Positions 5,451-27,997 of a stretch of 31,146 bases of DNA are shown here, one piece after another. This DNA comes from a virus. The position numbers and the translations under genes are program-made. The stretch spans positions 1 through 31,146 of the IMG/VR virus record IMGVR_UViG_3300047300_000192; one strand, written 5' to 3'. The notes beneath the pieces are model-generated. The model was not told the DNA's origin and ran no database searches. It worked only from the letters and a program-made list of their open reading frames with translations. Position 1 is the stretch's first letter. The number at the start of each line of letters is the position of its first letter.

Positions 5451-5580
5451 TTTTTATTACGATTTTTTGTGAAGTTGGCAATGATATTGACTCTTTTTTG
5501 CAAGATTTGTAAACATAAGCCACAAAAAACAAAAGCAGTAAACTCGTTACTGCCTTGATTAAGTTAGTGTATTGATCCAT
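5350..5580 (-). CDS. Small N-terminally anchored membrane protein, lysis-cassette neighbour
   Basis: MDQYTNLIKAV precedes a hydrophobic segment (TSLLLLFFVAYVYKSC), and the remaining 50 residues are polar, giving an N-in single-pass topology with a periplasmic tail. The start shares one base with the HNH stop (TAATG). The 101-nt overlap with the next, signal-bearing gene recalls overlapping inner/outer spanin pairs, but the periplasmic part is short and not a clear coiled coil. A second holin-like role is an alternative. Confidence 0.5.
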   Translation of the reverse strand: MDQYTNLIKAVTSLLLLFFVAYVYKSCKKESISLPTSQKIVIKNEIIKIDSSINRIPFTFSDSERTNFLQNYRTYR

Positions 5581-6095
5581 TAGATTTTAGATAATTGGAA
5601 GTGCATACCTTTGCAAGCTCTATTTTGTTTAATTGCCATTGAAATAGTGGAAATAGACACTCCAGTTTTTCTGCTTGCTTCTGAATACCCATTATAAATA
5701 ATTCCATTGCATTCAATTTTAATACTTCTATTATGCTCAGCTCCAAATTTTCCTTTATAAGTTTGATTATTATATTTTTTATATAACCCAGACTTTAAAG
5801 CGTGAGACATATTTTCCTTCGGAGTTACCCATTCTAAATTGCAATAAATATTATTTAATTTATTACCATCAATATGGTTAACTTGTTCCTTATTATATGG
5901 ATTTTCAATAAAATATTTAGCAACTAATCTATGAACTAAATAATTTTTCCGCTTTCCATTACCAATATAAATTTGAACCATAAGATAAGGAGATGTTACT
6001 CCAGCTCTTAATTTTCTAATTTGTTTGGTATTTATGTTTCTTACTTGTCCTAAGTTTGAAACTTCATAATTTGAATCTTCAATTCTATGCCACAT
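5580..6095 (-). CDS. HNH homing endonuclease (NUMOD4-HNH-NUMOD1)
   Basis: The 171-aa protein starts with NUMOD4 (MWHRIEDSNYEVSNLGQVRN). The HNH core follows (VHRLVAKYF, EQVNHIDGNKLNN, NLEWVTPKEN). It ends with a NUMOD1-like helix-turn-helix (IYNGYSEASRKTGVSISTIS). It cuts DNA at a specific site and spreads by homing. It sits between endolysin and the spanin-like genes and overlaps the following start by one base. Its N-terminal two thirds is clearly related to the HNH protein at 3172-3687, but the C-terminal DNA-binding module differs. A promoter-like box precedes it. Confidence 0.88.
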   Translation of the reverse strand: MWHRIEDSNYEVSNLGQVRNINTKQIRKLRAGVTSPYLMVQIYIGNGKRKNYLVHRLVAKYFIENPYNKEQVNHIDGNKLNNIYCNLEWVTPKENMSHALKSGLYKKYNNQTYKGKFGAEHNRSIKIECNGIIYNGYSEASRKTGVSISTISMAIKQNRACKGMHFQLSKI

Positions 6096-6148: not shown

Positions 6149-6598
6149 CTATATTGATGCTAATTGCATGTGCATAAAATCTGGACGAGACTTCCAATCA
6201 GCTCCACAATCAAATCCGTTTTTTCTAAAGCAATTAAGAAATTCTTCGCTAAATGGAGTTAATCCTTTTGCTTTAATTTGCTCTCTTGTAAGTCCAAGAG
6301 GATTTGCGAAAGCATTCATATCAATAGCAATTCCCCAAGAATGAAGGCTCATTGAGCTTAATCCTCTTTTGTTTCGTATATTGAAACAACCATCCCAAGT
6401 CTTAAGCTCCTTAATACATCCAGTTGAAATTAAAGCTTTAAATGCAGCAGTTAATGGTTTTACCATATCCTTGTTGCAATATATTCGCTTTGGAATAACT
6501 CCAATCTCTAATTCAGTTGGTACATCCCAAAGAATTAAATTAGGATTGCTTTGGCTTGCTGCTCCGTACTTTTTTAGTGCTTGCTGGCTCGTTACCAT
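6149..6598 (-). CDS. Endolysin, M15-family peptidase
   Basis: The 149-aa protein has the zinc-site pattern of M15 (VanY/Ply500-like) peptidases: SLHSWGIAIDMN, giving H86 and D93, and RPDFMHMQL, giving H143. The start MVTSQQALKKYG and the WDVP segment are typical of Bacteroidota phage versions. These enzymes cut peptidoglycan stem peptides. There is no signal peptide, so release would need the holin-like protein encoded just upstream, whose end overlaps this start by 59 nt. Confidence 0.88.
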   Translation of the reverse strand: MVTSQQALKKYGAASQSNPNLILWDVPTELEIGVIPKRIYCNKDMVKPLTAAFKALISTGCIKELKTWDGCFNIRNKRGLSSMSLHSWGIAIDMNAFANPLGLTREQIKAKGLTPFSEEFLNCFRKNGFDCGADWKSRPDFMHMQLASI

Positions 6599-13656: not shown

Positions 13657-15390
13657 TTATCTATTTAAAAAACCTTGATTTGGCATATCAATAGGCTTTT
13701 GATATACTTTTTTATTAACCGTAGGCAATATCTCGCCAGCTTTTCTTGCCTCTGCTGGAGTTATTTCTTTTGCTCCTTTTCTTCTCGGATCGGTAAAACG
13801 CTTATAGGTTTCACGAGTCCAAAAATGATGACAAGCTCCGCCTCCTTTGTACAAGAAAATATCATAAGTATCAGTTCCGCCCGGTCCCCAGCCTTCATTT
13901 GTGTTAGGCTTTTGGCTCATCAATTCGATATCCTCTTTGCGATAAAGCTTATTAGCCTTAATCATTTTTCTGCAAAATTCTCTTGAGTTATCTGATAATT
14001 CGCCACTATAACGATAACGGCTCATAAACAATTTGCCATCCATTTCACTTGGTAAATTTGGTCTTGCAACTCCAGTAGTTACAAACTCCCATACTTTAGC
14101 CATTAAGGATTTTTCAGGATTGTTTAAAGCCTCAAGTTCTGCATCAAGTCTTGCCTCATCTTCGTAATTAACTGGTCTTGAATCAATCAATTCCCATTCA
14201 GTTAAATCAATCTCCTCTCCGAATTCTTCGATGTCTAATTGGTCAATATGAGATGAAAGCTTTACACCAGTTTCTTCTTCCATTGCTGCCTTGTCCATTA
14301 CTGGAGATAAGTCAGTAAATTCTAATGGCTGAAGCGTTTTAAAGTACAAGTCTAAAGAGATACCATTGAATGCCAAGATTTGGTCAAACATATCGCATAG
14401 ATTCTCTTGGAATGGTCTGATAATCATATTGTCAAACAATATGAAGGCATTCTTTAATTCATCAGCATTTGAACTAAATCCGTTAGCTGATGGAATACCA
14501 AACAATAAACCCGAAGTAACTCCGTGTCCTAACAATATCTTTCCTCTTGCCTCCTCGCTTAAATAAGAATAGTGTTCAGGAGCATTATTTAACGGAACTG
14601 AATCTATCGTAGTTTTCTTCGTTTCATCATTATTAAATGCAACGATTGTTTTAACTCCATGCGATCCCGAAGTTTTACGCTTAACATCGTTAGAAATTAA
14701 GGCTTGTTTTTCTTCATCGGGAATTCCGTTGTTAAAATTAATAATAGTAGTAGGAGCAAAGCCATTTTGTACATCATTGATTAAATAGTCTGCAATTTCT
14801 TCCTCTAATTGAGCATAAGGCAAAGCACCTAAATAATCAACATTGGAATAGTATTTTTGTCCGATAGTATAATTACCTACACAAATCAATTCCAAAGTCT
14901 TATCGCCATATCCGAAAGCAGGAATACGCTTTGGCGGGAATTTCTTCGTGTCAGTCCAATTATCGCTATAATAATAACCAGTAATTTCTCCTTTCTCATT
15001 GCATTTCTCTACACGAATATTCATCGTAGGAATATGCTCTACTCTAATAATGGCATTTTTAGACTTATTATAAATAAGTTGTAAATAGCCTTGACCTAAA
15101 CGCTTGTAATCAACTACCAATTTCTTCACAACATCCTTGCGAAGTAACATCTTCATTTGAGCATATTCGTTAGGCTTGCGATTGGAATCAGTAGCATCCA
15201 ATCCTTTGCCATAAATCAATTTGGTAATTGAATTGATAACTGAATTGTTTGTTGTCGATCCGTTATATCTATCGTTTAAGAAAGTATAATAATCGTTATT
15301 ATCTCCAAACTCAACCCAGTCTTTTTTGTTGCTCTCAATAGACTTTGGAGCTTTGTAAGCCTCCAATTCTACAAAGTGAATATTACTCAT
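13657..15390 (-). CDS. Portal protein with an extra C-terminal domain
   Basis: The 577-aa protein has portal features: an N-terminal clip/wing region (GDNNDYYTFLNDRYNGSTTN), the stem segment YGKGLDATDSNR, and the conserved helical region GHGVTSGLLFGIPSANGFSS, LKNAFILFDNMIIRPFQENL. It forms the dodecameric DNA gate of the head. Residues from about 425 on form an additional domain (SGELSDNSREFCRKMIKANK, then GGGACHHFW and RRKGAKEITPAEARKAG) known to me only as an appendage on Bacteroidota phage structural proteins. The gene lies after capsid and tail-tube genes, far from the terminase, which is unusual. Confidence 0.85.
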   Translation of the reverse strand: MSNIHFVELEAYKAPKSIESNKKDWVEFGDNNDYYTFLNDRYNGSTTNNSVINSITKLIYGKGLDATDSNRKPNEYAQMKMLLRKDVVKKLVVDYKRLGQGYLQLIYNKSKNAIIRVEHIPTMNIRVEKCNEKGEITGYYYSDNWTDTKKFPPKRIPAFGYGDKTLELICVGNYTIGQKYYSNVDYLGALPYAQLEEEIADYLINDVQNGFAPTTIINFNNGIPDEEKQALISNDVKRKTSGSHGVKTIVAFNNDETKKTTIDSVPLNNAPEHYSYLSEEARGKILLGHGVTSGLLFGIPSANGFSSNADELKNAFILFDNMIIRPFQENLCDMFDQILAFNGISLDLYFKTLQPLEFTDLSPVMDKAAMEEETGVKLSSHIDQLDIEEFGEEIDLTEWELIDSRPVNYEDEARLDAELEALNNPEKSLMAKVWEFVTTGVARPNLPSEMDGKLFMSRYRYSGELSDNSREFCRKMIKANKLYRKEDIELMSQKPNTNEGWGPGGTDTYDIFLYKGGGACHHFWTRETYKRFTDPRRKGAKEITPAEARKAGEILPTVNKKVYQKPIDMPNQGFLNR

Positions 15391-15709
15391 AGAAAATTAT
15401 GTTTTGATTATGTGCCACATACTCATTTTTGTTAACTGAATATGTATCAATATCTTGGTTAGTACAAAATACTTTATCAAGATACACTAAATCTGTATTA
15501 TTCTTGATAGTCATTGTGTAAAAATGCCCCTCTTCTAAAGCGACAACTTTACTAAATTTCAAATAAAAACTTTCAGCAGTACAAGTAATAGAATACTCTA
15601 CTTCTACATTGGTAGATTCGTTTCGTAAATATAACTTATTAGCAGTTGCAAGTCGTGTAGGTATAAACTTTACCTCTTGAGCCAATGCCGATTCTCTTAA
15701 GATTATCAT
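15383..15709 (-). CDS. Small beta-rich late protein, first gene of the portal unit (108 aa)
   Basis: MIILRESALAQEVKFIPTRL is followed by beta strands (VEVEYSITCTAESFYLKFSK, GHFYTMTIKNNTDLVYLDKV), typical of small phage virion or assembly proteins. It begins the unit directly after the tail-tube terminator, with the CGTTTAT element 5 nt before its ATG, and overlaps the portal start by 8 nt. Function is unknown. Confidence 0.6.
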   Translation of the reverse strand: MIILRESALAQEVKFIPTRLATANKLYLRNESTNVEVEYSITCTAESFYLKFSKVVALEEGHFYTMTIKNNTDLVYLDKVFCTNQDIDTYSVNKNEYVAHNQNIIFYE

Positions 15710-15714
15710 AATTA

Positions 15715-15740
15715 ATAAACGATATTAGTATAGGTTTGTT
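15715..15740 (-). promoter_or_regulatory. Bipartite start-proximal element of the portal unit
   Basis: On the minus strand AACAAA (15740-15735), 13 nt, CGTTTAT (15721-15715), 5 nt, ATG. It is the only DNA between the terminator at 15749-15773 and the gene, so it probably includes the promoter. The same arrangement precedes 19049 and 25710. Confidence 0.5.
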
Positions 15741-15748
15741 TTTAAATG

Positions 15749-15773
15749 AAAAAAGGCGGGACATCTGCCCGCC
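15749..15773 (-). terminator. Rho-independent terminator after the tail-tube gene
   Basis: GGCGGG, 7-nt loop, CCCGCC, followed by six Ts on the minus strand. This is a textbook intrinsic terminator and is GC-rich against a very AT-rich background. It separates the tube gene from the portal unit. Confidence 0.92.
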
Positions 15774-15803
15774 AATTTTCAAACCTCAAACAACACAAAA
15801 AAA

Positions 15804-16331
15804 CTAAACCCCCGACACGATTGTAAAACCAGCAGCAGTTAAAGTAGTAGTCAAGAAGTTTGCTGGTACTGGCTCTTGTCCTGTCAATACTAAAGTATAT
15901 CCCGACAAATCTCCCATAGCTGCACCAGTAACGATAGTACCGCCACTAACTTCCATTCCGTGTTTCAAACCGCAATAGAATAAATTTCCATTGTTGTCTT
16001 CAACAATTACTTGTGGTCTGCCATAAGAAAGCAACTTGATTTGCTTATGGTCTTTAATCGTTAATTTCTTCAAAGTCAAATTCAGAGTTTGCTCGAAGAA
16101 AGTAGTACCATTTTCACGAGATGATGTGATTGTTTGCTCAAATGAAGAGTTTCCTTTCAAATCATATTTGTAAGCAGTTGGAGTACCCGCTACCGCAGAA
16201 ATGGCATCCGTATCCGTAACATCGTATGTTACTCCAGTAGCATCGCCTTCGTTAACAAAGTAAACGGCTTTTAATCCTCCGTTACTTGTTTTGCAAGGCT
16301 CTAATCTACCGAGTGAAATATCACAAGCCAT
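15804..16331 (-). CDS. Probable major tail (tube) protein
   Basis: The 175-aa protein begins MACDISLGRLEPCKTSNGGL and is beta-rich (FFEQTLNLTLKKLTIKDHKQ, YGRPQVIVEDNNGNLFYCGL, GDLSGYTLVLTGQEPVPANF). Size, composition and its own transcription unit (terminators on both sides) fit an abundant structural protein encoded after the capsid gene. In Bacteroidota siphoviruses such proteins are usually the tail tube. A head decoration protein is the main alternative. Confidence 0.6.
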   Translation of the reverse strand: MACDISLGRLEPCKTSNGGLKAVYFVNEGDATGVTYDVTDTDAISAVAGTPTAYKYDLKGNSSFEQTITSSRENGTTFFEQTLNLTLKKLTIKDHKQIKLLSYGRPQVIVEDNNGNLFYCGLKHGMEVSGGTIVTGAAMGDLSGYTLVLTGQEPVPANFLTTTLTAAGFTIVSGV

Positions 16332-16354
16332 ATTTTAATAAATTTAAATGATTG

Positions 16355-16386
16355 TAAAAATAAGCTCCCCGAATTAACGAGGAGCT
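16355..16386 (-). terminator. Terminator after the major capsid gene
   Basis: On the minus strand AGCTCCTCG, 6-nt loop, CGGGGAGCT form a 9-bp stem with one U-G pair, followed by TATTTTT. It lies 13 nt after the capsid stop and is likely to give separate, abundant capsid transcripts. Confidence 0.85.
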
Positions 16387-16398
16387 ATTAAGATGCTA

Positions 16399-17352
16399 TT
16401 AGTTAGCAGCGTTAGTAATACCGTAAGTTACGATATCTTCAACTACTCCGTACTGAACACCAGCAGTCAATCGCATAACAACACGAACATTTTGTGATCC
16501 GTCAATGTCAGCCAAGTCAATAACTTTAACTTCAGTATGGTCAGTCAACAAGCCAGTTCCGAAGAACAAGTTGTCTTTAGTTGTGGCGATAGCTTTGTTA
16601 GAAGGCATACCGTTAGCTACGAAGATTTTAACACCATCGAAAGATAATGAGCCATTGTTGTACCATTGAGTACCCAAAGTGTTAGTACCGTTAGCACCCA
16701 AACCTGATGCACCAAATCCGCCTAAAGCACGAACATAAGCACGAGCAATGTTTTGAGATACATATAAGTACAAGCCATCATTTCCGTAAAGAGAAGCAGG
16801 AATTGCATCAACGATTTTGCCTAATTCAGCAACAACATTTGAAGCAGTTACCGTAGTACCAGCAACTTCTTGAGCAGCAGGCAAACCAGCATCAGTAGTC
16901 AATAATGTAGTGAAACCATCAAACTCGCCAGCGTTAGCGTTAACACCGCCCCAGATGTTTGTTTCGTTCTTTGCAGCAACTTTAGCAGCAACATGAGCTA
17001 CCAAGAAATCTTGGAAAGAAGAAGGCAATACATCAAATGCAGAGTATCCTTGTTGTGCTGATAACCAATCTGAATGGAAATCCTTCTTGCAAAGTTGTAA
17101 GTTAACTTGGAACTCTTCTGGAGTTAAAACTCGCTCCGTTAAAGTAATAGTAGAAGTAGCATCGAAATCGCAAGTAGCGTTTTTCAAGATGTCGTTAGAA
17201 GACAATTTCTTGATAACCTCTTTGTACTTGATGCTTGGTTTTACTGTGATACCACCAGCTTCGATAGTTGGAGCTGATAACAATGCTGCTGCGATAATTT
17301 GATCCTTAAACTCGCCAGCATAAGTTGTTGTAATGCTTGTTGTAGTAGCCAT
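16399..17352 (-). CDS. Major capsid protein
   Basis: The 317-aa protein follows protease and scaffold genes. It contains an N-terminal arm (MATTTSITTTYAGEFKDQII), a central region with VLTPEEFQVNLQLCKKDFHS and FQDFLVAHVAAKVAAKNETN, and a C-terminal set of strands (GLYLYVSQNIARAYVRALGG, DGVKIFVANGMPSNKAIATT, NVRVVMRLTAGVQYGVVEDI) in line with the HK97-like capsid fold of Bacteroidota phages. It should form the icosahedral shell. Its own terminator supports high expression. Confidence 0.85.
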   Translation of the reverse strand: MATTTSITTTYAGEFKDQIIAAALLSAPTIEAGGITVKPSIKYKEVIKKLSSNDILKNATCDFDATSTITLTERVLTPEEFQVNLQLCKKDFHSDWLSAQQGYSAFDVLPSSFQDFLVAHVAAKVAAKNETNIWGGVNANAGEFDGFTTLLTTDAGLPAAQEVAGTTVTASNVVAELGKIVDAIPASLYGNDGLYLYVSQNIARAYVRALGGFGASGLGANGTNTLGTQWYNNGSLSFDGVKIFVANGMPSNKAIATTKDNLFFGTGLLTDHTEVKVIDLADIDGSQNVRVVMRLTAGVQYGVVEDIVTYGITNAAN

Positions 17353-17362
17353 TATTTAATAA

Positions 17363-17965
17363 TTATTTGTTAAAAATTTTTGAAAATACTGAATCTTCGA
17401 TTGAACGAACACGATTCTTTGCTAATTTGAATGAATTTACTTTTACTTCTGCTTCAGGATTAGGTACGATTGCTTCAGCACCAGCTTCTACATTCGATAA
17501 CTCAACCTCTAAAGATTCTTTAGATGCTTTTAAAGATTCGTTCTCTGCTTTGATAGCAGCTAATTCAGTCTTTAATGCTTCAATTTCAGCCTCAAAGAAA
17601 GTTTCTTTTGAAACTGATTCCACAATACGCTTTGGAGAAGGAGCAACTTCAGCTTCCATCATTGGCTCAACTACCTCTTCAGGAGCTGCTTCAACTTCGA
17701 TTTCTACTTCTGCTTCAGCTTCTTCTTGTTTGATTGCAGCAATAATGCCTTCAACCTCAACAACCAAGATGCGACCATCTTCCAACTTGTACTCGCCAAC
17801 TGGCATAGGTACAATCCCGTCAGCAGTTACTATTCCAATAGAGAAATCAGGCTCGAATGATTCTGCTTCAACAATGGTAATACCATCCTCAAGCTTCATT
17901 TGAGCAAGCTTAACCTCTAAAGCAAGTAACGCTTTAATTTGGTTTAACTTGTTTTTGTAGTTCAT
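17363..17965 (-). CDS. Capsid scaffold-like protein
   Basis: The 200-aa protein is very acidic, with a short N-terminal domain (LEDGITIVEAESFEPDFSIG, DGIVPMPVGEYKLEDGRILV), an Ala/Glu/Val-rich low-complexity middle and a coiled coil (AEIEALKTELAAIKAENESL) before a basic C-terminus (KLAKNRVRSIEDSVFSKIFN). A coiled coil ending in a basic helix, encoded between protease and capsid, is the classic form of a phage scaffold that binds capsid subunits. It is presumably digested by the upstream protease. Confidence 0.75.
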   Translation of the reverse strand: MNYKNKLNQIKALLALEVKLAQMKLEDGITIVEAESFEPDFSIGIVTADGIVPMPVGEYKLEDGRILVVEVEGIIAAIKQEEAEAEVEIEVEAAPEEVVEPMMEAEVAPSPKRIVESVSKETFFEAEIEALKTELAAIKAENESLKASKESLEVELSNVEAGAEAIVPNPEAEVKVNSFKLAKNRVRSIEDSVFSKIFNK

Positions 17966-17980
17966 ACTATATTTATTTAA

Positions 17981-18169
17981 TTAATTTACGCTTACAATAG
18001 TTCTTGGCTCATTTGTATTAACGATAGTAGAGCCAGAGTTTTGACCTACTAATGATCCAATACCTTGATTAATTAATTCGCCATTGCAACAATCTTTGCT
18101 ATATGTACCATCTGCACATAAACAAGCTCTATCTCCACCTTGAGGAGATGATGTTTTACTCTTCGCCAT
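17981..18169 (-). CDS. Small cysteine-rich head-region protein, 62 aa
   Basis: From the ATG at 18169 the protein reads MAKSKTSSPQGGDRACLCAD with CLC and CC clusters (four Cys within 15 residues) and then a Gly/Ser/Asn-rich tail. The upstream ATG at 18196 would extend into the protease. Similar short Cys-rich proteins sit between protease and scaffold in related phages. It may bind zinc or form disulfides. The function is unknown. Confidence 0.6.
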   Translation of the reverse strand: MAKSKTSSPQGGDRACLCADGTYSKDCCNGELINQGIGSLVGQNSGSTIVNTNEPRTIVSVN

Positions 18170-19049
18170 CTTGAAGTATTTTAATAATTTCATCAATAAC
18201 TTTTTGCTCCTCTAATTCCAACAATCCTAACTCCTTGAGTTTATTTCTGCTCCAACCTAATGCAGACTTGCCACCCCATAAAAGATAGCTAATATATCCA
18301 CAATCATTTTGCGAATCAGCATTGTCGTAATAGGTTTCAGCTCTGCTCAAGTAAGAGTACATTCTCTTAATTGTTTCAACTGAAATAGCTTCACCATTTG
18401 CTAATTGTTGTGCTCTAACTTTTCCGGTTTGAGTAGCACACTTATTGCCATTAGCATCGTTTAATTCAATGCCTCTTTTAGCATTGCTCTTGATATCATC
18501 GCCATAATCAGCATACGATTCAAGCTCAACCTCTTTAGCCATTTCTAACTTATCAGCAAAATAACCTTCAATAGAGAATCCTTTTACTTTGCCATCCTTA
18601 ACATCTTGCCAAACTTGGTCATTATCAGCTTTCATTGAAATCATCCAAGTACCTTGTGGCAAAGAAAAACCATAAGCATTTGACTTATCGTTTTCAGTAT
18701 CGTCAATAATCCACGATTCTACTACTGTCATTCCATCAATCTTGCTATTATGTTGCAAAGTAGCATTTGACTGATTACCATTTTTTAGGAATAATTCAGA
18801 AGCAAGCTTTACGGTTTCTTTTGAGAAGAATACATAAAACTCGTCATTCCCATACTTACGATAAATCTGCTTATTAGGTATTAATGCAGCACCCATCAAT
18901 ATCCGTTTCTCCGCATCTACTTCGGCAAGCTTAACTTCGTATTCTTTATTTAAAGCGACAAAGTTGCTCTCTATTGCGGGAAAGTCGACAAGGGAAACTG
19001 CATCAATACCATCAGTATCTTTATCAATAATTAATTCCACGATTCTCAT
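18156..19049 (-). CDS. Prohead protease, XkdF-like, with an added C-terminal domain
   Basis: Residues 1-170 match the XkdF-like phage serine protease pattern: AVSLVDFPAIESNFV, RILMGAALIPNKQIYRK, ATLQHN with the likely catalytic His100, and KGFSIEGYF with the likely Ser159. Such proteases digest the scaffold during capsid maturation. Residues about 175-285 form a second domain (NAKRGIELNDANGNKCATQT, GKVRAQQLANGEAISVETIK, SYLLWGGKSALGW) that is widespread as an appendage of phage proteases and whose function is unknown. It is the first gene of the head unit and has the CGTTTAT element 5 nt before its ATG. Confidence 0.82.
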   Translation of the reverse strand: MRIVELIIDKDTDGIDAVSLVDFPAIESNFVALNKEYEVKLAEVDAEKRILMGAALIPNKQIYRKYGNDEFYVFFSKETVKLASELFLKNGNQSNATLQHNSKIDGMTVVESWIIDDTENDKSNAYGFSLPQGTWMISMKADNDQVWQDVKDGKVKGFSIEGYFADKLEMAKEVELESYADYGDDIKSNAKRGIELNDANGNKCATQTGKVRAQQLANGEAISVETIKRMYSYLSRAETYYDNADSQNDCGYISYLLWGGKSALGWSRNKLKELGLLELEEQKVIDEIIKILQDGEE

Positions 19050-19054
19050 AACCT

Positions 19055-19079
19055 ATAAACGATTTAAAATTTGATTGTT
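19055..19079 (-). promoter_or_regulatory. Bipartite start-proximal element of the head unit
   Basis: On the minus strand AACAAT (19079-19074), 12 nt, CGTTTAT (19061-19055), 5 nt, ATG of the prohead protease. The element occupies almost the whole 39-bp gap after the tape measure gene. Confidence 0.5.
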
Positions 19080-19088
19080 TTATTTTCA

Positions 19089-20798
19089 CTACATTGATGC
19101 AGCACTTACTATATTTCTATCAAGGCTTTGTGCAGTCGTTACATCCTTTGAAACTACATAAGCCTTTACTGGAGTATTAGCTTGCTTGTTTATAGTTTGT
19201 GCTACCTGATTAATACCACTTGCTCCTACTACATTAAATTGTGGAGCTGCTGAAGCTGGAGTAGCACCAGTCATTTCCATACCTCCAAATGATGTAGATG
19301 GTTGAGTATTAATAATATCTTTAACTGCTTTAAAACCCATTGCAGCTACGGTAGCAACATTAGCAATTTTTAATCCAAACTCAAAAGGAGTAGCAGTCTT
19401 TGTAGCTAATTCGGCAGTAATACCTTGATATGTATTTATTAATGATTGAGCAACTGCAAATGCTTTGCCTTCAGTTGAAGCAGCATCAAATAATGATGAT
19501 ATATTACCAAGTGTATTAGCAACCATTGAAATTCTTTGTCTTTCAATTATTTTCTGCTGGTTATAGGTTTCCATTGAAATTCTCCTCTTCTCATCCTCTG
19601 AAAGTTGAGTAGATTTTTGAGCTGCTTGATTATATTCATCTAAAGCTTTTAGCCTTGTTGAATATGCCTCTAATTCATTTGAATAAACAATAGATAAATT
19701 ATTAAGATGACTATTTAATAAATAGGTTTCTAATTCATCTCGCTTAATCTTTAAGTTATTATCTAATTCTTGTGATTTAGTACGATAAGCTTCATCGGCA
19801 TCAACTCTTGCTTGAGTGCCTTGCATATATTTCTTTCTTCTTTCGTCAAGCAATTTTAACTCAAATTCTCCAGTTTGTTGCATCTGGAAAATCTCTTCGA
19901 TTCTTCTATCTTGCTCATTTTTTATTAAAGAAGTGTTAGTATCAATTCTTGATTTTACCCTTGCCAAAGCACTATCAGTAGCTGATACATCTAAAGCATC
20001 TTCTTCTTTTAATAAAGCTATTCTATTAACAATTTGCTCCGATCTAAAACCAGTAATTTGAGCATTTATAGCTTGCTTATTATTTAAAGCTTCTTGTAAT
20101 GCAACTTGATTTTCAATGTTATTATTAATTTTAACATTTAATTCGGCTAATTCAATTTGTTTATCAGCCATTAAAGTCATAGCAGCAGCCTGATTATCAA
20201 GTACAACTTTTAACTTATCATTGGCTTTTATTCTATCTGAAATAGATTTAGATTCATCATCCCTTAATTGTCTTTGTCTTTCAGCTTGAATATCAAATTG
20301 CTCAACTAATCCAGCTTGTTTTACAATGGCTAATCTAACTTGGTTTTCAAGTTTTACAAGTTGTTGTGAAGTTTCATAAGCTCCTTTGAAATAATTTTTA
20401 GCATTTTCTAAAAAGTTACCACTAATGGTAGTATTCATTAATGCCTTTAGTTTTTCCCAATTAGTAAATGTTGAAACTAAATCATTAAAAACAATTTTAG
20501 TAGTATTTAAACCTACATTGAATTTATCTGTAATTCCTTGATTTGAAGCAATGACATCCTTTAATTGAGCAAATGCTTCAATGGCTACTGCAATTCCAGC
20601 ACCTTTAATTGCTAAACCTAATCCCTTAAAAGCATCTCGAAGTGCATTGGTAGATTTGGTATTGCTTTCTACTGCATCATTTACTTTTTCTTGCTGCTCT
20701 TTTACATCTTCAAGAGTTTTAACAACATCTTGTAAATCCTTGTTTACCTCATCAATGTTATTACTGATTTCTAACTCTATCTTTTTCTTTTCAGCCAT
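19089..20798 (-). CDS. Tape measure-like tail protein
   Basis: The 569-aa protein is mostly helical, with long coiled-coil stretches (residues 1-45, then QAERQRQLRDDESKSISDRI and onward). It has hydrophobic segments at about residues 58-76 (GLGLAIKGAGIAVAIEAFAQ) and near 465-490 (FGLKIANVATVAAMGFKAVK), and a flexible C-terminus. This fits a tape measure protein that sets tail length and is ejected with DNA. At about 1.5 angstroms per residue the tail would be near 85 nm, if all residues count. It is shorter than typical tape measures, and lies downstream of the other tail genes. Confidence 0.7.
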   Translation of the reverse strand: MAEKKKIELEISNNIDEVNKDLQDVVKTLEDVKEQQEKVNDAVESNTKSTNALRDAFKGLGLAIKGAGIAVAIEAFAQLKDVIASNQGITDKFNVGLNTTKIVFNDLVSTFTNWEKLKALMNTTISGNFLENAKNYFKGAYETSQQLVKLENQVRLAIVKQAGLVEQFDIQAERQRQLRDDESKSISDRIKANDKLKVVLDNQAAAMTLMADKQIELAELNVKINNNIENQVALQEALNNKQAINAQITGFRSEQIVNRIALLKEEDALDVSATDSALARVKSRIDTNTSLIKNEQDRRIEEIFQMQQTGEFELKLLDERRKKYMQGTQARVDADEAYRTKSQELDNNLKIKRDELETYLLNSHLNNLSIVYSNELEAYSTRLKALDEYNQAAQKSTQLSEDEKRRISMETYNQQKIIERQRISMVANTLGNISSLFDAASTEGKAFAVAQSLINTYQGITAELATKTATPFEFGLKIANVATVAAMGFKAVKDIINTQPSTSFGGMEMTGATPASAAPQFNVVGASGINQVAQTINKQANTPVKAYVVSKDVTTAQSLDRNIVSAASM

Positions 20799-20935
20799 TT
20801 CAATTCTCGCTTAAATTGTTTGAATAAATCTTTAAATGTATTTGGTAACCAGTTTTTTCCTTTTGCAATTTCAATAACCTCTGCTTGGGCAAAATGGTCA
20901 TCTATTATAAGCAAGTCTATTATGTGTTTTATCAT
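20777..20935 (-). CDS. Small tail-region protein, 52 aa
   Basis: The ORF reads MIKHIIDLLIIDDHFAQAEV, then IEIAKGKNWLPNTFKDLFKQ and a basic tail. Its ATG overlaps the stop of the 659-aa tail gene as ATGA and its end overlaps the tape measure start by 22 nt, both typical of real genes here. It is placed where tail-assembly chaperone parts are often encoded before a tape measure, but it is too short to assign. Function is unknown. Confidence 0.6.
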   Translation of the reverse strand: MIKHIIDLLIIDDHFAQAEVIEIAKGKNWLPNTFKDLFKQFKRELKWLKRKR

Positions 20936-22911
20936 ATTATTCTAAAATCGTTTAATAATTCTAAATCAACTTCGCCTGTACTTAAATTAGTAGAATATGA
21001 GTTTATAGTATAACGCTTATCTCTTATTACAACTCTATCATTTAATTTTAATGAAGTTAAAAATGGTATTGGCATAATTGCTTTAACTCTTAAAATTCGA
21101 GCCTTTATATTAAAGATATTATTTACATATTCAGCATAATAGTTATAGTATAAGCTATTAGTTTCTATAAAATTTGTAAAGCTTGATTGTTCAGCTCCAA
21201 AATTTATTGTCCAGTTTATGCTTGATATGTTTGTATCTTGACCAAATACATTATAAGAGCTTGCAGTAGAAGTAGTTGATCCATCATTAAACTTAAACGA
21301 AGCAGAAGTTATTGTTCCGTAATCGTATAATATAACTGGAGCTGGAATATAATTGTCAAAGCCTACTTTTAAAGAATATCCAACTTGTAAGTCTGTTCCT
21401 GTAAATTTTGAGAATAATAAATTTTCAAATGGAATTGATATTTCATAATCTTCTCCATCATTGTTTAATTCATAATTTAAATCTCCGTATTCATGATTAG
21501 CAATACCTAAATATTTCCTATTCATAAAACTTTCACTTGGAGTATAATTAAACTTAATTCTCTTATAAGTTTTAGAACGCTCAATATCTATTTCATCAGT
21601 AATTACATATTTTGTAATATCTTTTATAGTTCCAGCATTATACCAATCTTCAATCTGCTCAATCTTGTAAACTGAATCTTCTTCAGAATAACAAGTAAGA
21701 TTAAACATCTTTAATATTCCAGTAAAAAAATCTTCTAAACTAATTTCTGGCATATACGATGAAATATCTAATACCGTTTCAGTAGTTTGGCTTATAGTTT
21801 GTGTTACCGTAACATCGCTTGTAGTAGTTGCACCTGATTTTGTTTCAAAGTAATATACCGATGTAAAAGTAACTGGAGCTTTTGCTGACATATGAAAAGT
21901 ATATGCACCAGATTCTTCTAAAGGTACTTCTAAATACATTGGAGTAATTTGAGTATTGTAAGTCTGCTTACTTAATTCAATTCCATTACGATAAACATAG
22001 AAAGTAAATTGTACTGCATCTTCTCCAATACCGGGATCGCTAAATGTAATAGTAATATGGCTTTGGCTTAAATAAGCTGGAGCAACTGGCTTTGTATATG
22101 TTAATGTATCAGTAAATACATTGAACATTCCTTGAGTACCAGTTGTAGAAGTATTTGTCTGAAAATTTAACTTTGTTACTCTATATTTTTCCTCAAATGA
22201 ATCTGTATTTTTTAGCCATAAGAAAGCACGAGTAAATCGAGAATCCGTTAAAAAATCCCCTTCAAAATTAATTGATAAATTTTGAGCAAGCACATCAAAT
22301 AAACTTGAAACTCGTATTGCTGGAAATAAATCAGTATGATAAATTGGAGTTGATGAATTAGATATATCCCAATTAACTACCGTATTGCCGCCTCCGCCAT
22401 ATTGCCATACATTCTTTGAAGTAATTAATGGAAACTTAATATCATTTGTAACTCCACCAATTACACGATTTCTAACTACATTCCCATTGTATGTAAAATC
22501 ATATCCACTTAAATCTAAATCTTTTAATTGCTTCCCAGCAAAAGCATCCTTTAGTGAAATCAGACTTCCAAGAAAAGTTAATTGATAATTATCAATAACT
22601 CCATTTTTATATTGTGCCTTTTCAATTTGAATCTTACCTTTTTTAAATGGAATAGTATCAAGTTCAATATAGGCATCAACTCTTATTCTTGCATCAAAAC
22701 CATCATCAATAGAATTTTCGTACCAATGCTTAAATATTGCATTGTTATTTTTTGAAGCTGGAACACTAAATGATTGACTAAAATCAGTAAATACTTTACT
22801 AATATCACTTACATCTTGTATCGAACTTGTGATGCTTATTGTTTCATCATTGAAAAGCTCAAGTCGTTTAGCGACACCATCTACATAAATATATACTCCA
22901 ACTATTACCAT
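20932..22911 (-). CDS. Large tail protein, candidate baseplate hub
   Basis: The 659-aa protein is beta-rich. It opens with IYVDGVAKRLELFNDETISI, DFSQSFSVPASKNNNAIFKH and a QIEKAQYKNGVIDNYQLTFL segment. It ends LKLNDRVVIRDKRYTINSYS followed by TNLSTGEVDLELLNDF, a C-terminal motif that recurs in Bacteroidota siphovirus tail proteins. Position before the tape measure and size suggest the distal tail or hub complex. I see no clear lysozyme or protease motif in it. Confidence 0.6.
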   Translation of the reverse strand: MVIVGVYIYVDGVAKRLELFNDETISITSSIQDVSDISKVFTDFSQSFSVPASKNNNAIFKHWYENSIDDGFDARIRVDAYIELDTIPFKKGKIQIEKAQYKNGVIDNYQLTFLGSLISLKDAFAGKQLKDLDLSGYDFTYNGNVVRNRVIGGVTNDIKFPLITSKNVWQYGGGGNTVVNWDISNSSTPIYHTDLFPAIRVSSLFDVLAQNLSINFEGDFLTDSRFTRAFLWLKNTDSFEEKYRVTKLNFQTNTSTTGTQGMFNVFTDTLTYTKPVAPAYLSQSHITITFSDPGIGEDAVQFTFYVYRNGIELSKQTYNTQITPMYLEVPLEESGAYTFHMSAKAPVTFTSVYYFETKSGATTTSDVTVTQTISQTTETVLDISSYMPEISLEDFFTGILKMFNLTCYSEEDSVYKIEQIEDWYNAGTIKDITKYVITDEIDIERSKTYKRIKFNYTPSESFMNRKYLGIANHEYGDLNYELNNDGEDYEISIPFENLLFSKFTGTDLQVGYSLKVGFDNYIPAPVILYDYGTITSASFKFNDGSTTSTASSYNVFGQDTNISSINWTINFGAEQSSFTNFIETNSLYYNYYAEYVNNIFNIKARILRVKAIMPIPFLTSLKLNDRVVIRDKRYTINSYSTNLSTGEVDLELLNDFRII

Positions 22912-23981
22912 TAAATTACATTATTAATTAGGTTATAAGCATACTCAAATTCAATCGTATAATTTATGTTACGATCCATTAAAGAAGTTTTTAAAGTTGT
23001 ACTATTAGTCTTGCATTCCGCTGGCTTGCCATCAAGCAAAATAGTTTCCGCAAGCATTAAGTCTTGAATTAAATCTGAATAATTCTCATTTACCCAACCT
23101 GTGTTTAAAACAACCGATTGACTTCCATTAATATTGAAAGATGTACTTTGAGCCTTGCTTGTATTATAATTAATTGCATCAGGCATCAATTTAAAAGTAG
23201 TAGATTCTACGCTGATTGAATTAGTTTTAGCCTTAAAGAAATTAAGGAACTGCCAACCTCCGTAACGATTAATAAATGAGCAAACTACTGGAGTATATTT
23301 TACCTCACATACAGGAATAACTCTGAATGTCTTGGTAATTTGTACTTCTCCGCCTGACCAAAAGCGAATGGTTAAAGTATTTCCACATTTGTACTTGACT
23401 GATGAAGTGCTTAAATCAATCACAAGCATATCAGTAGTTGCTGCATCAGTTGTATTAATTAAGATAGAAGAAACCTCATTTCTGCCATTTAAATCTTTAT
23501 AAGATATATCTACTTTATCTCCAAGCGATGTATTTACTACTACATTAACAAATGGAATCTCGCCTAATGTATATTCGATTTCTTTAGCAGTATCAGCAAG
23601 AACTACAAATCTATTAGAAGCATCCGTTTCGTTATAGCCATCTAAATACTTTGTATATCCATTAACACCGACATAGTTTACCGTATCAATTAAAGAGTAA
23701 GTACCAAAACTTGTTTCCTTGTATCTTTTGATTCTAACATTGCACCACATTGAATTAGTAGATTCAGTAGGAGCTATATTATCAATATACTCACGAATAA
23801 ATGATGATATATTGTAGGAGTTTTCAGTTTGAGTTGCGGAGGCATTTCGCTTACTTAAAGTGTAAGTCGCTGAAGCTGGAACTGAATTAGGTTTATTCCA
23901 CAAAAATATCTCAATCTTACTACCTACTTGTCCGCTTTCATTAACTAAAATGAAATATGGACTTCTTGCATTTATAATCAT
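22911..23981 (-). CDS. Tail structural protein, 356 aa, possible distal-tail component
   Basis: The protein has repeated beta-sandwich-like stretches (IINARSPYFILVNESGQVGS, KIEIFLWNKPN, then ASATYTLSKRN, later VRIKRYKETSFGTYSLIDTV, then INRYGGWQFLNFF) with no signal peptide. The stop shares a base with the next start (TAATG). It lies between the gp10-like gene and the large tail protein, so it is probably a distal tail or tail-tip protein. The exact family is not recognised. Confidence 0.55.
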   Translation of the reverse strand: MIINARSPYFILVNESGQVGSKIEIFLWNKPNSVPASATYTLSKRNASATQTENSYNISSFIREYIDNIAPTESTNSMWCNVRIKRYKETSFGTYSLIDTVNYVGVNGYTKYLDGYNETDASNRFVVLADTAKEIEYTLGEIPFVNVVVNTSLGDKVDISYKDLNGRNEVSSILINTTDAATTDMLVIDLSTSSVKYKCGNTLTIRFWSGGEVQITKTFRVIPVCEVKYTPVVCSFINRYGGWQFLNFFKAKTNSISVESTTFKLMPDAINYNTSKAQSTSFNINGSQSVVLNTGWVNENYSDLIQDLMLAETILLDGKPAECKTNSTTLKTSLMDRNINYTIEFEYAYNLINNVI

Positions 23982-24523
23982 TTCGCTTTTGTTATTCCGT
24001 TATCTACTATTGTTTCCAAATCTATTAATAATGCTTTCGCTAATTGTGTTTGAATATATTTTTTATATCCAGCTTCAAATGGTTTAGTAAAAAACATTGT
24101 TGGCTTCATTCCTGTTTGATAAATACTTCTTGCAATTATAAAAGCAGTAGATTGATATGTTAAAAACTTACCAGTCTTTTTATCTCTAAACTGAATTTTC
24201 CTATCTCGCACCCATTTATCAATTCCTTCAGTTAAGCCACCAGATTTACCTGTCTTTCTGCCAAATCTATATGGACTATTGGGAGCTTTTTTTGTTGAAG
24301 ATTTACCTTGAACACCTTTATCTAAAAAATCTCCGTAATACTCATATTGGAATCCAACTAAAAAATAGTTCTCTTCATTTAATATTTCTCCTTTTAAGCT
24401 TTTATATAAGTTTTTAGAATTATTGTGCTTCAGCTTTGATAGATTGCTTCTTGATTGCTGAATTACATAATCCCTATATTTTTTAACTATTTTATAAGAT
24501 TCAGTTAATTTTTGCATTAGCAA
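23978..24523 (-). CDS. HK97 gp10-like tail/neck protein
   Basis: The 181-aa protein has the gp10-like order: an N-terminal helix, a strand pair around YFLVGFQYEYYGDFLDKGVQ (the conserved YG.FLdkGvqG turn), a basic loop (GRKTGKSGGL), and a C-terminal helix after GMKPTMFFTKPFEAGYKKYI. Members of this class are tail-completion or neck proteins. It is followed in ATGA overlap by the 356-aa gene and precedes the tail structural genes in the operon. Confidence 0.7.
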   Translation of the reverse strand: MLMQKLTESYKIVKKYRDYVIQQSRSNLSKLKHNNSKNLYKSLKGEILNEENYFLVGFQYEYYGDFLDKGVQGKSSTKKAPNSPYRFGRKTGKSGGLTEGIDKWVRDRKIQFRDKKTGKFLTYQSTAFIIARSIYQTGMKPTMFFTKPFEAGYKKYIQTQLAKALLIDLETIVDNGITKAK

Positions 24524-24969
24524 GTAGTCATATCATTGGGAATAATTACATCAAAAGTTAAAGTCCAGCCAGCAATCGAATTTTCGAAACGATCCACAAA
24601 TGGCTCGCAAGTTGGAGTACCATCTAATTGAACTAAATTATCATATAATTCTCCTCTAATTAAATCCATATAAGTTTTATTAGCCAAATCTAATTGAGTA
24701 TTCAACACATCGTGAGTATTATCATTTCCTTCAAATACATCAGAAGTTTCAGCTTTGCTTTCATCAACAATATCCATAAAAAGAATAGATATATTAAAGC
24801 TTAATGATTGCTCGCTTGGAGTAGCATTGTTTACAATAATATGGCTTAATGGAAATATGGTCTGCTTGGCATTGTCTATAAATGTCAAATCACCAGTAGT
24901 TACCGTATTAATAAAATCGGTAGCTTTTAAGTAAGTTCTTAACTTATCAATTATGTAATAGTACCCCAT
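24517..24969 (-). CDS. Tail terminator/completion-like protein, 150 aa
   Basis: The alpha/beta pattern fits the gpU/tail-completion class: an N-terminal helix (MGYYYIIDKLRTYLKATDFI), strands in FPLSHIIVNNATPSEQSLSF, and the pattern NISILFMDIVDESK followed by helix and C-terminal strands ending WTLTFDVIIPND. It is encoded beside the gp10-like protein, the usual arrangement. I infer that it caps the tail tube. It is reported as a class resemblance, not a proven family. Confidence 0.6.
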   Translation of the reverse strand: MGYYYIIDKLRTYLKATDFINTVTTGDLTFIDNAKQTIFPLSHIIVNNATPSEQSLSFNISILFMDIVDESKAETSDVFEGNDNTHDVLNTQLDLANKTYMDLIRGELYDNLVQLDGTPTCEPFVDRFENSIAGWTLTFDVIIPNDMTTC

Positions 24970-25032
24970 ATTATCTTTGCTTTAGCATATTTGCTTCTAA
25001 TGTATTCTTTTGCTTTTCAAATGTTAAATAAG

Positions 25033-25710
25033 TCAAACAGGTAAAGATGGAAAGCTTGGAAATTTCATCAAATCTTCTAACATCTCCTTGAGAGAGAGCA
25101 TAGATAGATGAATACCATCCCCATCTTTTCCCAAATTGAGCTTGTTCAGAGTATTCATTGCCTCCTGATTGCTCTCCAAATAGGTCAGAATACTTTTCAG
25201 TAATTCGTTTCCTAAATGATAAAAAAAAACCATAGCACCCATTACAACATTCAAAGGCATTCGCTTCATAAGCTCTCCATATTCCGATGTGCCATTGTAA
25301 TCAGTAATAGAATATCTTGCTCCAGCTTTACTTATAACTGGTCTAAATAGCACCGCCATAGCTTTGTGCATACTTGACCAATCAGTTACATATGAATCAA
25401 TGTCCATATATTCTCCAGAAGTTATATCATCCAAGTTTGGAATAAAACCAAATTCCGTGTTATCAATTTTAAATCTTTGCACTAAATCGTGCTTACCATT
25501 AAACAATGCTGAAACATTGCTTACAATATAACTTAAATCTTTATGCTTAATTTTAGCTACATTCTTTAGACTAACTCCGCAGAATATTTCTACCATTTTG
25601 TGATGCACAAATTCAGATTCTTCATTATCCTCAACTATCTTCAAAAACTTTTGGTATTGACCAAGAGTAATTTCACTTAAATCAGTTGGAATATCTAATT
25701 CTATCTTCAT
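25033..25710 (-). CDS. Conserved phage protein, first gene of the tail unit (225 aa)
   Basis: The helical protein starts MKIELDIPTDLSEITLGQYQ and carries the blocks YMDIDSYVTDWSSMHKAMAV, LFRPVISKAGARYSITDYNG and MPLNVVMGAMVFFYHLGNEL. Proteins with this pattern are common in Bacteroidota phages near tail genes; a tail-assembly chaperone role is a guess. The -1 frame stays open past its stop, but I see no slippery heptamer. The CGTTTAT element lies 5 nt before the start, the first in a tail-gene series. Confidence 0.55.
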   Translation of the reverse strand: MKIELDIPTDLSEITLGQYQKFLKIVEDNEESEFVHHKMVEIFCGVSLKNVAKIKHKDLSYIVSNVSALFNGKHDLVQRFKIDNTEFGFIPNLDDITSGEYMDIDSYVTDWSSMHKAMAVLFRPVISKAGARYSITDYNGTSEYGELMKRMPLNVVMGAMVFFYHLGNELLKSILTYLESNQEAMNTLNKLNLGKDGDGIHLSMLSLKEMLEDLMKFPSFPSLPV

Positions 25711-25715
25711 AATTT

Positions 25716-25741
25716 ATAAACGAGTTATTAAAATCTTTGTT
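25716..25741 (-). promoter_or_regulatory. Bipartite start-proximal element of the tail unit
   Basis: On the minus strand AACAAA (25741-25736), 13 nt, CGTTTAT (25722-25716), 5 nt, ATG. It fills the 34-bp gap after the terminase gene. Same architecture as at 15715-15740 and 19055-19079. Confidence 0.5.
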
Positions 25742-25744
25742 ACT

Positions 25745-26956
25745 CTAATATACAAAGTATTGACCTTTGTTTGGATTTGATAAGTGATAAAAGACATTGT
25801 ATCTAATCGCATCAATAGCATGATTAAAATTGTCAATTACCAAGCCTGATTTCTTATCCGAATAAATGTAGTTATTAAACTCCTTTGCCACATTCAAAGA
25901 ATTAGGCTCAAGGATAATCTCAAAGTCTTGCATTAAAGCAATACCAGCAGTAATACTACCAGCTCCTTTTTCGGTAGGCTGAATGTTACACCTTTGGCTC
26001 TGAAGCTCCGCAATTAGTCTTGGCTCTGCACTATCTGCTATAATCAGATTTCCTCCGCATACTTGCTTGTTAATTACTGCTATCTCTGATGTAGTAAGCT
26101 TTGGCTTATACAAATGCTCCTTGACATAAATCTTACGCTTGCTCTTGTCAATGGCTACCTCTACCAATGTTGTTGGATCGATAGAGAATCCAAAGTCTTG
26201 ACCAAATGAAGTCTGCAAGTTGTCAGGATTAAATGCTCCAAACTTCCAATTAGTAAATACAACACCTTCTGCCTTGTCAAGCCATCCACCAAGAATTGTA
26301 TGCTGGTATTTCTTTGGATTGCTTTTTTCAAGTTGCTCAATCTGATTAAGAAATGATTCAGATAGATATTCCTTGTTATCCAAGTAAGTTGTATGGATGT
26401 ATGTCGTATCTCCTTTGGTCAGAGTAGCACCAGCTTCAACTCCTTTTTGCTCGAAGAATCGTGAGTAAATGAAATGCTCCTTTGTTGTCGGATTTAGAAT
26501 AAGAATAACTCTATTCTGCTTGGTAAAATTACGGACTGATAAATCAATCTTATCAAATACATCTTCTTCTACCAATTCCTCTGCCTCATCAAGCACCCAA
26601 GTAGTAACACCTTGCAATGATTTTAAATTAGCCGTTTGAGTACCTGAAGAAGTCTTGATTCCCTTAAATAAAATCTTGCTACCAGTTCGAAGATTTATAA
26701 TCTCATCTTTGGTAATACTAAAGTCATTATGCAAGTCAGCCATTTCAATCTTCTCCACAAATTCTGGAATAATTGAGATATGAGCCGATGTTAATGTGTA
26801 ACGAGTAAATAGTATGGTATGTCCTACTTCGTATGTCAGAAGCAAAAGAAATGAGTTTAGGGCAAACGATTTCCCGCTGCCCCTACCTCCTGTAACTACA
26901 AAGTATCTACTATCACTTTCAAATAATGGTATATACTTCTTATTAATTGTTATCAT
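25745..26956 (-). CDS. terL: Terminase large subunit (PBSX/Terminase_3 type)
   Basis: The 403-aa protein has a full ATPase and nuclease. Walker A is GGRGSGKS (residues 23-30), Walker B WVLDEAEE (120-127), and a coupling NPT motif follows at 155-157. The RNase H-like nuclease carries D254 (QDFGFS), D308 (IIADSA) and D382 (NHAIDAIRY). It packages DNA into the head and cuts it. The 4-nt overlap with the small subunit start region and the immediate neighbours fit a terminase pair. No truncation is seen. Confidence 0.93.
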   Translation of the reverse strand: MITINKKYIPLFESDSRYFVVTGGRGSGKSFALNSFLLLLTYEVGHTILFTRYTLTSAHISIIPEFVEKIEMADLHNDFSITKDEIINLRTGSKILFKGIKTSSGTQTANLKSLQGVTTWVLDEAEELVEEDVFDKIDLSVRNFTKQNRVILILNPTTKEHFIYSRFFEQKGVEAGATLTKGDTTYIHTTYLDNKEYLSESFLNQIEQLEKSNPKKYQHTILGGWLDKAEGVVFTNWKFGAFNPDNLQTSFGQDFGFSIDPTTLVEVAIDKSKRKIYVKEHLYKPKLTTSEIAVINKQVCGGNLIIADSAEPRLIAELQSQRCNIQPTEKGAGSITAGIALMQDFEIILEPNSLNVAKEFNNYIYSDKKSGLVIDNFNHAIDAIRYNVFYHLSNPNKGQYFVY

Positions 26957-27213: not shown

Positions 27214-27575
27214 TAGTATTCGTTATAAATTCTTCTGATTTGTCCAATGTAATCTCTCCAACAAGAATCGCAAGAAGTTGATTCCAGATTTACATTAAAA
27301 ATATTCTTGTAAATCGCTGATAATTCCCTTTGAACTACTGGAGTTATTTGGCTTGGATTTCTTTCAAAAAAATCTTTTAAGTAATTGTAGTCTGATTCGT
27401 TTAAGCAATTTGGTTTCTTGTAAGGAAATAACTGATTCAGCTTCTCCTTTCTTTCATCGCATCCGCAATCTAAACCAGTTGCTTCACTAAATAATTCAAA
27501 TACTTTCTTAATACCTGTTGCTTCGGTTAGCTTTTCTATCGAATCGCCTAATCCTTGTGATTTTCTTTTTCCCAT
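27213..27575 (-). CDS. Conserved phage protein with cysteine pairs (120 aa)
   Basis: The N-terminus GLGDSIEKLTEATGIKKVFE and LFSEATGLDCGCDERKEKLN, with later TSCDSCWRDYIGQI, form a recognisable conserved protein of Bacteroidota phages. The CxC and CxxC pairs could bind zinc. It lies between the sigma-like gene and terminase and overlaps the former by 28 nt. No established function is known to me; partnership with sigma or terminase is a position-based guess. Confidence 0.65.
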   Translation of the reverse strand: MGKRKSQGLGDSIEKLTEATGIKKVFELFSEATGLDCGCDERKEKLNQLFPYKKPNCLNESDYNYLKDFFERNPSQITPVVQRELSAIYKNIFNVNLESTSCDSCWRDYIGQIRRIYNEY

Positions 27576-27997
27576 TTTTGTATTTTTTCTTTACAATTTT
27601 TGATTGTGTTATAAACTGACATAAACCCGATGTTAGTCCTTCGAGCAATTTCTCGCATACTTACGCCTGATTCAACCCAAAGCATAAATAACTTCTTATC
27701 GTACCATTCCCAAGTTTCGATAAAATCCTGATATGGTTTTGCAAGGTCAATGATATATTCATCGTCCTCTTCTATTAACGAATATTCTACCTCTTTTGTA
27801 ATCTCTATCTTCTCTACCTTCTTACGATGCAAGTCCATTGTCAAGGATCGTAGCGTGAAATAAAAGTAAGCTTCGTTAATATCTTTATCAAATACCTTGA
27901 TATATGCTTCTTGCACTACATCTTCAGCATAATGCTTTTCTCCAAACTTCTCTACCACCTTAATCCAATGCTTGTGCTTTTGGTAGATGTGATTCAT
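27548..27997 (-). CDS. Sigma-70-family-like factor (phage transcription factor)
   Basis: The 149-aa protein has a region 2-like stretch near residues 10-50 (HWIKVVEKFGEKHYAEDVVQ, then EAYIKVF) and a C-terminal region 4-like helix-turn-helix near 105-135 (FMLWVESGVSMREIARRTNI, then GFMSVYNTIK). The acidic linker between them is typical of compact ECF-like factors. It would bind host RNA polymerase and redirect it. Its place immediately upstream of the terminase and structural genes suggests late-gene control, possibly by the CGTTTAT elements. A sigma-derived DNA-binding protein without polymerase binding remains possible. Confidence 0.7.
   Translation of the reverse strand: MNHIYQKHKHWIKVVEKFGEKHYAEDVVQEAYIKVFDKDINEAYFYFTLRSLTMDLHRKKVEKIEITKEVEYSLIEEDDEYIIDLAKPYQDFIETWEWYDKKLFMLWVESGVSMREIARRTNIGFMSVYNTIKNCKEKIQKWEKENHKD

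Follow-up and report, generated by a model that had tools for sequence, protein, structure and literature searches.

Start-codon-linked AAC/CGT elements as candidate late promoters of an ECF-like sigma factor in a phage with probable Bacteroidota hosts

The virus record analyzed here, a single stretch of 31,146 bases (hereafter the window), raises the question of what reads a two-part sequence found directly before three of its gene blocks, and where the transcripts of these blocks begin. The element AACAA-N(13,14)-CGTTTAT-N5-ATG has three exact matches in the window, all of which are located on the minus strand (15740-15707, 19079-19047 and 25741-25708), and no match was obtained in 100 dinucleotide shuffles of the window. 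In each match the ATG is where an ORF starts (15709, 19049 and 25710), and each of these ORFs opens a structural block, in agreement with the original prediction of an element before exactly three genes, each the first of a module. The constant distance of 5 nt between CGTTTAT and ATG and the nearly constant spacing to AACAA were likewise confirmed (5 nt in all three cases, with spacers of 14, 13 and 14 nt at 15709, 19049 and 25710). The genes for the large terminase subunit, head protease, portal and tail fibre were identified by PHROGs and Pfam. The elements and the features next to them are, in the order of the minus strand:

25745..26956, minus strand: large terminase gene, whose stop codon lies 4 nt before element 1; it belongs to the upstream region, which carries no element
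25716..25741, minus strand: candidate promoter element 1, with AACAA at 25741-25737, a 14-nt spacer, CGTTTAT at 25722-25716, then AAATT and the ATG at 25710; conserved in about 100 relatives
25033..25710, minus strand: gene for a 225-aa protein (phrog_32199), the first one in the block that follows the terminase gene
19055..19079, minus strand: candidate promoter element 2, with AACAA at 19079-19075, a 13-nt spacer, CGTTTAT at 19061-19055, then AGGTT and the ATG at 19049; conserved in relatives
18156..19049, minus strand: head-maturation protease-like gene (Peptidase_S78_2), first of the head block
15745..15773, minus strand: terminator-like stem-loop with T run just upstream of element 3, hairpin GGCGGGCAGATGTCCCGCC-TTTTTT
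15715..15740, minus strand: candidate promoter element 3, with AACAA at 15740-15736, a 14-nt spacer, CGTTTAT at 15721-15715, then TAATT and the ATG at 15709; conserved in relatives
15383..15709, minus strand: 108-aa gene that opens the portal block; the gene for the portal protein comes next (13657-15390)

The names tail, head and portal module, under which these blocks had been introduced, are only approximate. The gene at 25710 opens the block after the large terminase gene, and it is the end of this block that contains a tape-measure-like ORF. At 19049, the head protease gene is followed by the probable capsid gene (ORF 16399-17352), which we infer to be such from its position and conservation. 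The gene at 15709 precedes not only the portal gene but also fibre and lysis genes.

The box CGTTTAT taken by itself is unremarkable, with 8 copies in the window against 4.6 expected. Besides the three elements, these include the two copies that had already been named in coding DNA (3806-3812 and 3978-3984) and three further ones that had not been listed (8553, 28216 and 29051). The complete element is much more distinctive. With a weight matrix derived from related phages, the three sites reach 20.6-22.2 bits (21.0 bits for element 1), against 11.9 for the highest-scoring other site in the window.

Relatives were gathered by capsid-, sigma- and terminase-centred searches and by searches with whole records. 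Many of them are represented by 10-kb capsid-centred loci without the sigma gene, and they are not independent of each other. The element recurs upstream of the three orthologous genes in these relatives. Of 129 distinct NGTTTA elements, 112 have a box that starts 12 nt ahead of the start codon; the distance is 11 nt for 6 elements and 13-15 nt for the other 11, and ACAA is mostly followed by a spacer of 13-14 nt. In the weighted matrix the ACAA core is invariant and preceded by A in 91%, and the GTTTA core is invariant too, partly by construction as the class was selected on GTTTA. The spacer carries little signal besides its A/T richness. None of 230 control starts, taken from sigma (75), terminase (77) and capsid (78) genes, is preceded by the element. 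A blind exact-match scan of viral contigs returned at least 83 matches; for 44 of the matches listed, the ATG is the start codon of one of the same three genes, and the remaining matches mostly stand before ORFs of less than 60 aa, as would occur by chance. The absence of the element from relatives with the same gene order, which had been named as grounds for abandoning the idea, was thus not observed; the element is kept, with clade-specific variants of its second box.

The two boxes correspond to a known type of promoter. Extracytoplasmic function (ECF) sigma factors are characterized by AAC at -35 and CGT at -10 of their promoters and by a sigma2-sigma4 architecture with a linker of less than 50 residues; a co-transcribed anti-sigma factor and autoregulation are further hallmarks, the latter with known exceptions (PMC8103513). 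The combination of AACAA and CGT therefore argues for ECF-type promoters and supports the earlier reading of CGTTTAT as a -10-like box. A candidate reader is encoded upstream of the terminase gene:

27548..27997, minus strand: ECF-like sigma factor (149 aa), proposed reader of the three elements

The 149-aa ORF matches a phage sigma family. Its own score against Pfam Sigma70_r2 is 17.6 and stays below the cut-off of 24, while 18 of 37 members of the family match this domain (best 8.7e-8). A profile of the 37 sigma relatives matches the ECF sigma factor SigW in the PDB with an E value of 1.2e-5 across both domains, by which the protein is related in sequence to ECF sigma factors. The predicted structure, of low overall pTM (0.39), contains helices at residues 2-58 and 87-146 and a low-confidence linker between them. 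Its best Foldseek matches are ECF sigma factors, none of which reaches an E value of 0.001; the sigma4 part gives a Z score of 9.3, and region 2 of E. coli sigmaE was matched to residues 1-64. As far as the model can be followed, the protein has the ECF architecture of a sigma2 and a sigma4 domain joined by a short linker. Of the original designation as a sigma-70-like factor, the sigma part is therefore retained, whereas a general sigma-70 factor is replaced by a two-domain, ECF-like one, as indicated by the profile match to SigW and the predicted fold. The gene was found in 21 of the 25 relatives' records searched, also in clades whose -10 box is different. In 75 relatives the start of the sigma gene carries no element, and the window contains only the three sites described, which means that the usual ECF autoregulation is absent; for this reason we name the protein ECF-like and do not file it as a member of the ECF group. 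In the ORFs neighbouring the sigma gene, DUF3310 is the only Pfam domain recognised and transmembrane-like stretches are lacking, a search that a soluble anti-sigma factor of a novel type would escape.

We consider it fairly likely that the three elements are late promoters of this ECF-like sigma factor, with transcription starting at the A of the start codon and leaderless mRNAs for the structural genes. The 149-aa sigma factor, made from the upstream region, would associate with the core RNA polymerase of the host and recognize AACAA as the -35 box through its sigma4 domain and CGTTTAT as the -10 box through its sigma2 domain. Transcription would begin at the A of the start codon, and the structural blocks would be expressed from leaderless mRNAs. 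Binding to the elements, the exact start site, the late timing and the leaderless translation are what we infer in this scheme. The original proposal, which had already put forward leaderless mRNAs and the phage sigma factor as reader, is thereby supported and made more precise.

The position of the start site can be judged from the bases around the start codon. In all 112 elements with fixed spacing the start codon is preceded by a pyrimidine (T in 106, C in 6); in the control genes (capsid, terminase and sigma) this position is mostly A. The start codon of the fixed-spacing genes is ATG in 107 and GTG in 5, with unchanged distance to the box. Bacterial polymerases prefer a pyrimidine at -1 and a purine at +1. 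Together with this preference, the pyrimidine makes the A of the ATG the likely +1 position. The same promoters, read by the same phage sigma factor, might also start transcription a few nucleotides upstream of the ATG and produce a very short leader. Such an arrangement would fit the few relatives with 13-15 nt between box start and ATG, which corresponds to a leader of 1-3 nt, and a sister clade that appears to carry about 8 extra nucleotides, but the fixed distance of 12 nt and the invariant pyrimidine followed by A or G point to a +1 at the start codon, so that we regard a short leader in the window phage as unlikely. In the wider clade concerned (L036, L037, L039, L044, L049, L055, L065 and L067), the distance between AACAA and the ATG is about 39 nt rather than 30-31 nt. 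An AT-rich -10 box is followed there by an A-rich stretch, with about 8 extra nucleotides before the ATG, and this L036/L037/L044-type clade probably makes short-leader versions of the same promoters. The leaderless layout would therefore be restricted to some clades within the group.

Whether start sites lie at the ATG or close to it, the assignment to the phage sigma factor depends on its relation to the -10 box. This box varies between clades (CGTTTAT, GGTTTAT, AGTTTAAT, TGTTATTAT and others), and AACAA is constant. Distances between -10 boxes correlate with distances between regions 2.3-2.4 of the sigma factors (r = 0.70), a value from Mantel-type tests, which are inflated by phylogeny and shared ancestry. 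The correlation is 0.55 after control for a neighbouring protein, the orthologue of the 25710 gene product, and 0.46 after control for region 4; with region 2.3-2.4 controlled for, the contribution of region 4 amounts to only 0.08. The -10 boxes of promoters within one genome are more alike (0.77) than those across genomes (0.58; permutation p < 0.001). Co-variation and likeness within genomes would be the pattern expected from a shared reader. AAC/CGT promoters are read by ECF sigma factors in general, and thus an ECF sigma factor of the host could act on the same sites, with another role for the phage protein. This is clearly improbable, as the -10 box co-varies with region 2.3-2.4 of the phage sigma factor beyond the neighbouring phage protein, and the phage sigma gene is kept upstream of the terminase gene in nearly all relatives.

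Region 2.4 does not reveal a simple residue-to-base code. Such a code is contradicted by L095 and L142, in which residues of sigma region 2.4 are altered and CGTTTAT is retained, and by L176, which combines an L165-type sigma factor with an L172-type promoter. The sigma factors of L165 (141-572) and L172 (187-618) themselves are near identical except for a swapped block that covers region 2.3-2.4, and the differences between their promoters are confined to the surroundings of the -10 box. From its sequence, this pair looks like a natural recombination of promoter specificity; L176 breaks the pattern.

The nearest cultured relatives found are the Nonlabens (Persicivirga) phages P12024L (JQ823123) and P12024S (JQ823122) of the genus Inhavirus, and therefore the host of the window phage probably belongs to the Bacteroidota. 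The capsid-like protein shares 29.7% identity over 98% with those of these phages, and profile matches in P12024L were obtained for the sigma factor, terminase, protease and the homologue of the 25710 gene product. With sigma, terminase, protease and capsid genes in common, the window phage is Inhavirus-like as judged by sequence comparison. The homologous sigma gene P12024L_35 is located shortly before the terminase gene, as in the window. P12024L carries a sister element, AACAA-N14/15-CGTTA[A/T]T-N5-ATG (CGTTAAT or CGTTATT), before seven genes (P12024L_01, _05, _08, _37, _42, _45 and _46), of which P12024L_37 lies between the sigma and terminase genes. Its box likewise begins 12 nt before the ATG. 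P12024L differs from the window phage in its -10 box, in the larger number of promoters and in a capsid identity of only about 30%. The gene table of the P12024L record lists no promoters. In a genome scan, the sigma profile matched 21 loci of weak similarity. One of them, on the Bacteroidetes MAG contig L223 (4998-7294), contains a weakly similar sigma gene, directly followed by an ORF as long as a terminase gene, and also a possible element, CGTTATATTGGT-ATG. L223 is probably a related phage that was binned with its host.

The probable host phylum also allows a comparison with known translation signals. In Flavobacterium johnsoniae, which does not use Shine-Dalgarno sequences, 87% of the predicted transcripts have leaders of more than 10 nt (mean 33), and the positions at which A favours translation are -3, -6, -12 and -13 (PMC6847099). 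The fixed position relative to the start codon would also suit a translation-initiation or RNA regulatory signal within a longer leader, without any promoter. This is very improbable, since at -12 and -6, two positions at which A promotes initiation in F. johnsoniae (PMC6847099), the element carries C and T, respectively, and therefore does not resemble a translation signal; in addition, two boxes with an unconserved spacer of 13-14 nt are the layout of an ECF promoter, and the element is confined to block-opening genes. A short repeated motif in intergenic DNA could also be a packaging or recombination site or the operator of a phage repressor or activator, but the invariable orientation and start-codon distance, the lack of evident dyad symmetry in the sequence and the co-variation with sigma region 2.3-2.4 make this extremely unlikely.

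The preferred reading, late promoters read by the phage ECF-like sigma factor, has partial parallels in known systems. Phage ECF sigma factors with their own promoters were described for phiEco32-like phages (PMC4331800, PMC7881722). The Kuravirus-like phages phiEco32, 7-11 and Privateer have in common with the window phage a phage sigma factor of the ECF group (PMC7881722) and own low-copy promoters before structural genes, which in 7-11 were predicted by a similar sequence argument. They differ in their enterobacterial hosts, and the predicted core motif of 7-11 is TGATGT plus TATA as opposed to the canonical AAC/CGT fixed onto the start codon. Bacterial ECF systems such as SigW and EcfG (PMC8103513) share AAC at -35, CGT(T) at -10 and a two-domain sigma factor with short linker; in the window phage neither an anti-sigma factor nor autoregulation was found, and the distance between promoter and start codon is fixed. 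F. johnsoniae (PMC6847099), which has in common with the window phage the probable host phylum and the absence of Shine-Dalgarno use, is mostly leadered, and systematic leaderless late genes would be unusual there. No description of ECF sigma factors or leaderless late promoters in Bacteroidota phages, and none of a transcription programme of this lineage, was found in the open-access literature. Late promoters of the canonical AAC/CGT type that probably yield leaderless mRNAs would thus be new for Bacteroidota phages. There may be about an even chance that this aquatic lineage of Bacteroidota phages puts its whole structural programme on leaderless mRNAs by means of its own ECF sigma factor, and that joint evolution of the sigma factor with its few promoters leads to -10 codes distinct from each other. 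If true, the lineage would offer a naturally occurring set of paired ECF sigma factors and promoters, with each promoter fused to a start codon, and may alter late-gene translation in hosts that use mostly leadered mRNAs. Expression of the late genes may do without the A-rich leader signals which the hosts use for translation. The matched variants of sigma factor and -10 box could be used to learn how region 2 of ECF sigma factors selects the -10 sequence. The programme proposed here is specific and testable with regard to which protein reads which promoters and where the transcripts start.

Host-type Bacteroidota sigma-A promoters (TTG-N17/22-TAnnTTTG) were not detected on the coding strand of the window and show no excess over a random model, and early promoters could therefore not be assigned. 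Sites found in a scan with the sigma-70 consensus are no more numerous than in shuffles. A strong terminator-like hairpin is located at 16363-16386, between the capsid-like gene and the next gene (15804-16331), which itself lacks an element. Furthermore, an HNH/NUMOD4 homing-endonuclease-like gene (5580-6095) adjoins the peptidase M15 lysis gene (6149-6598).
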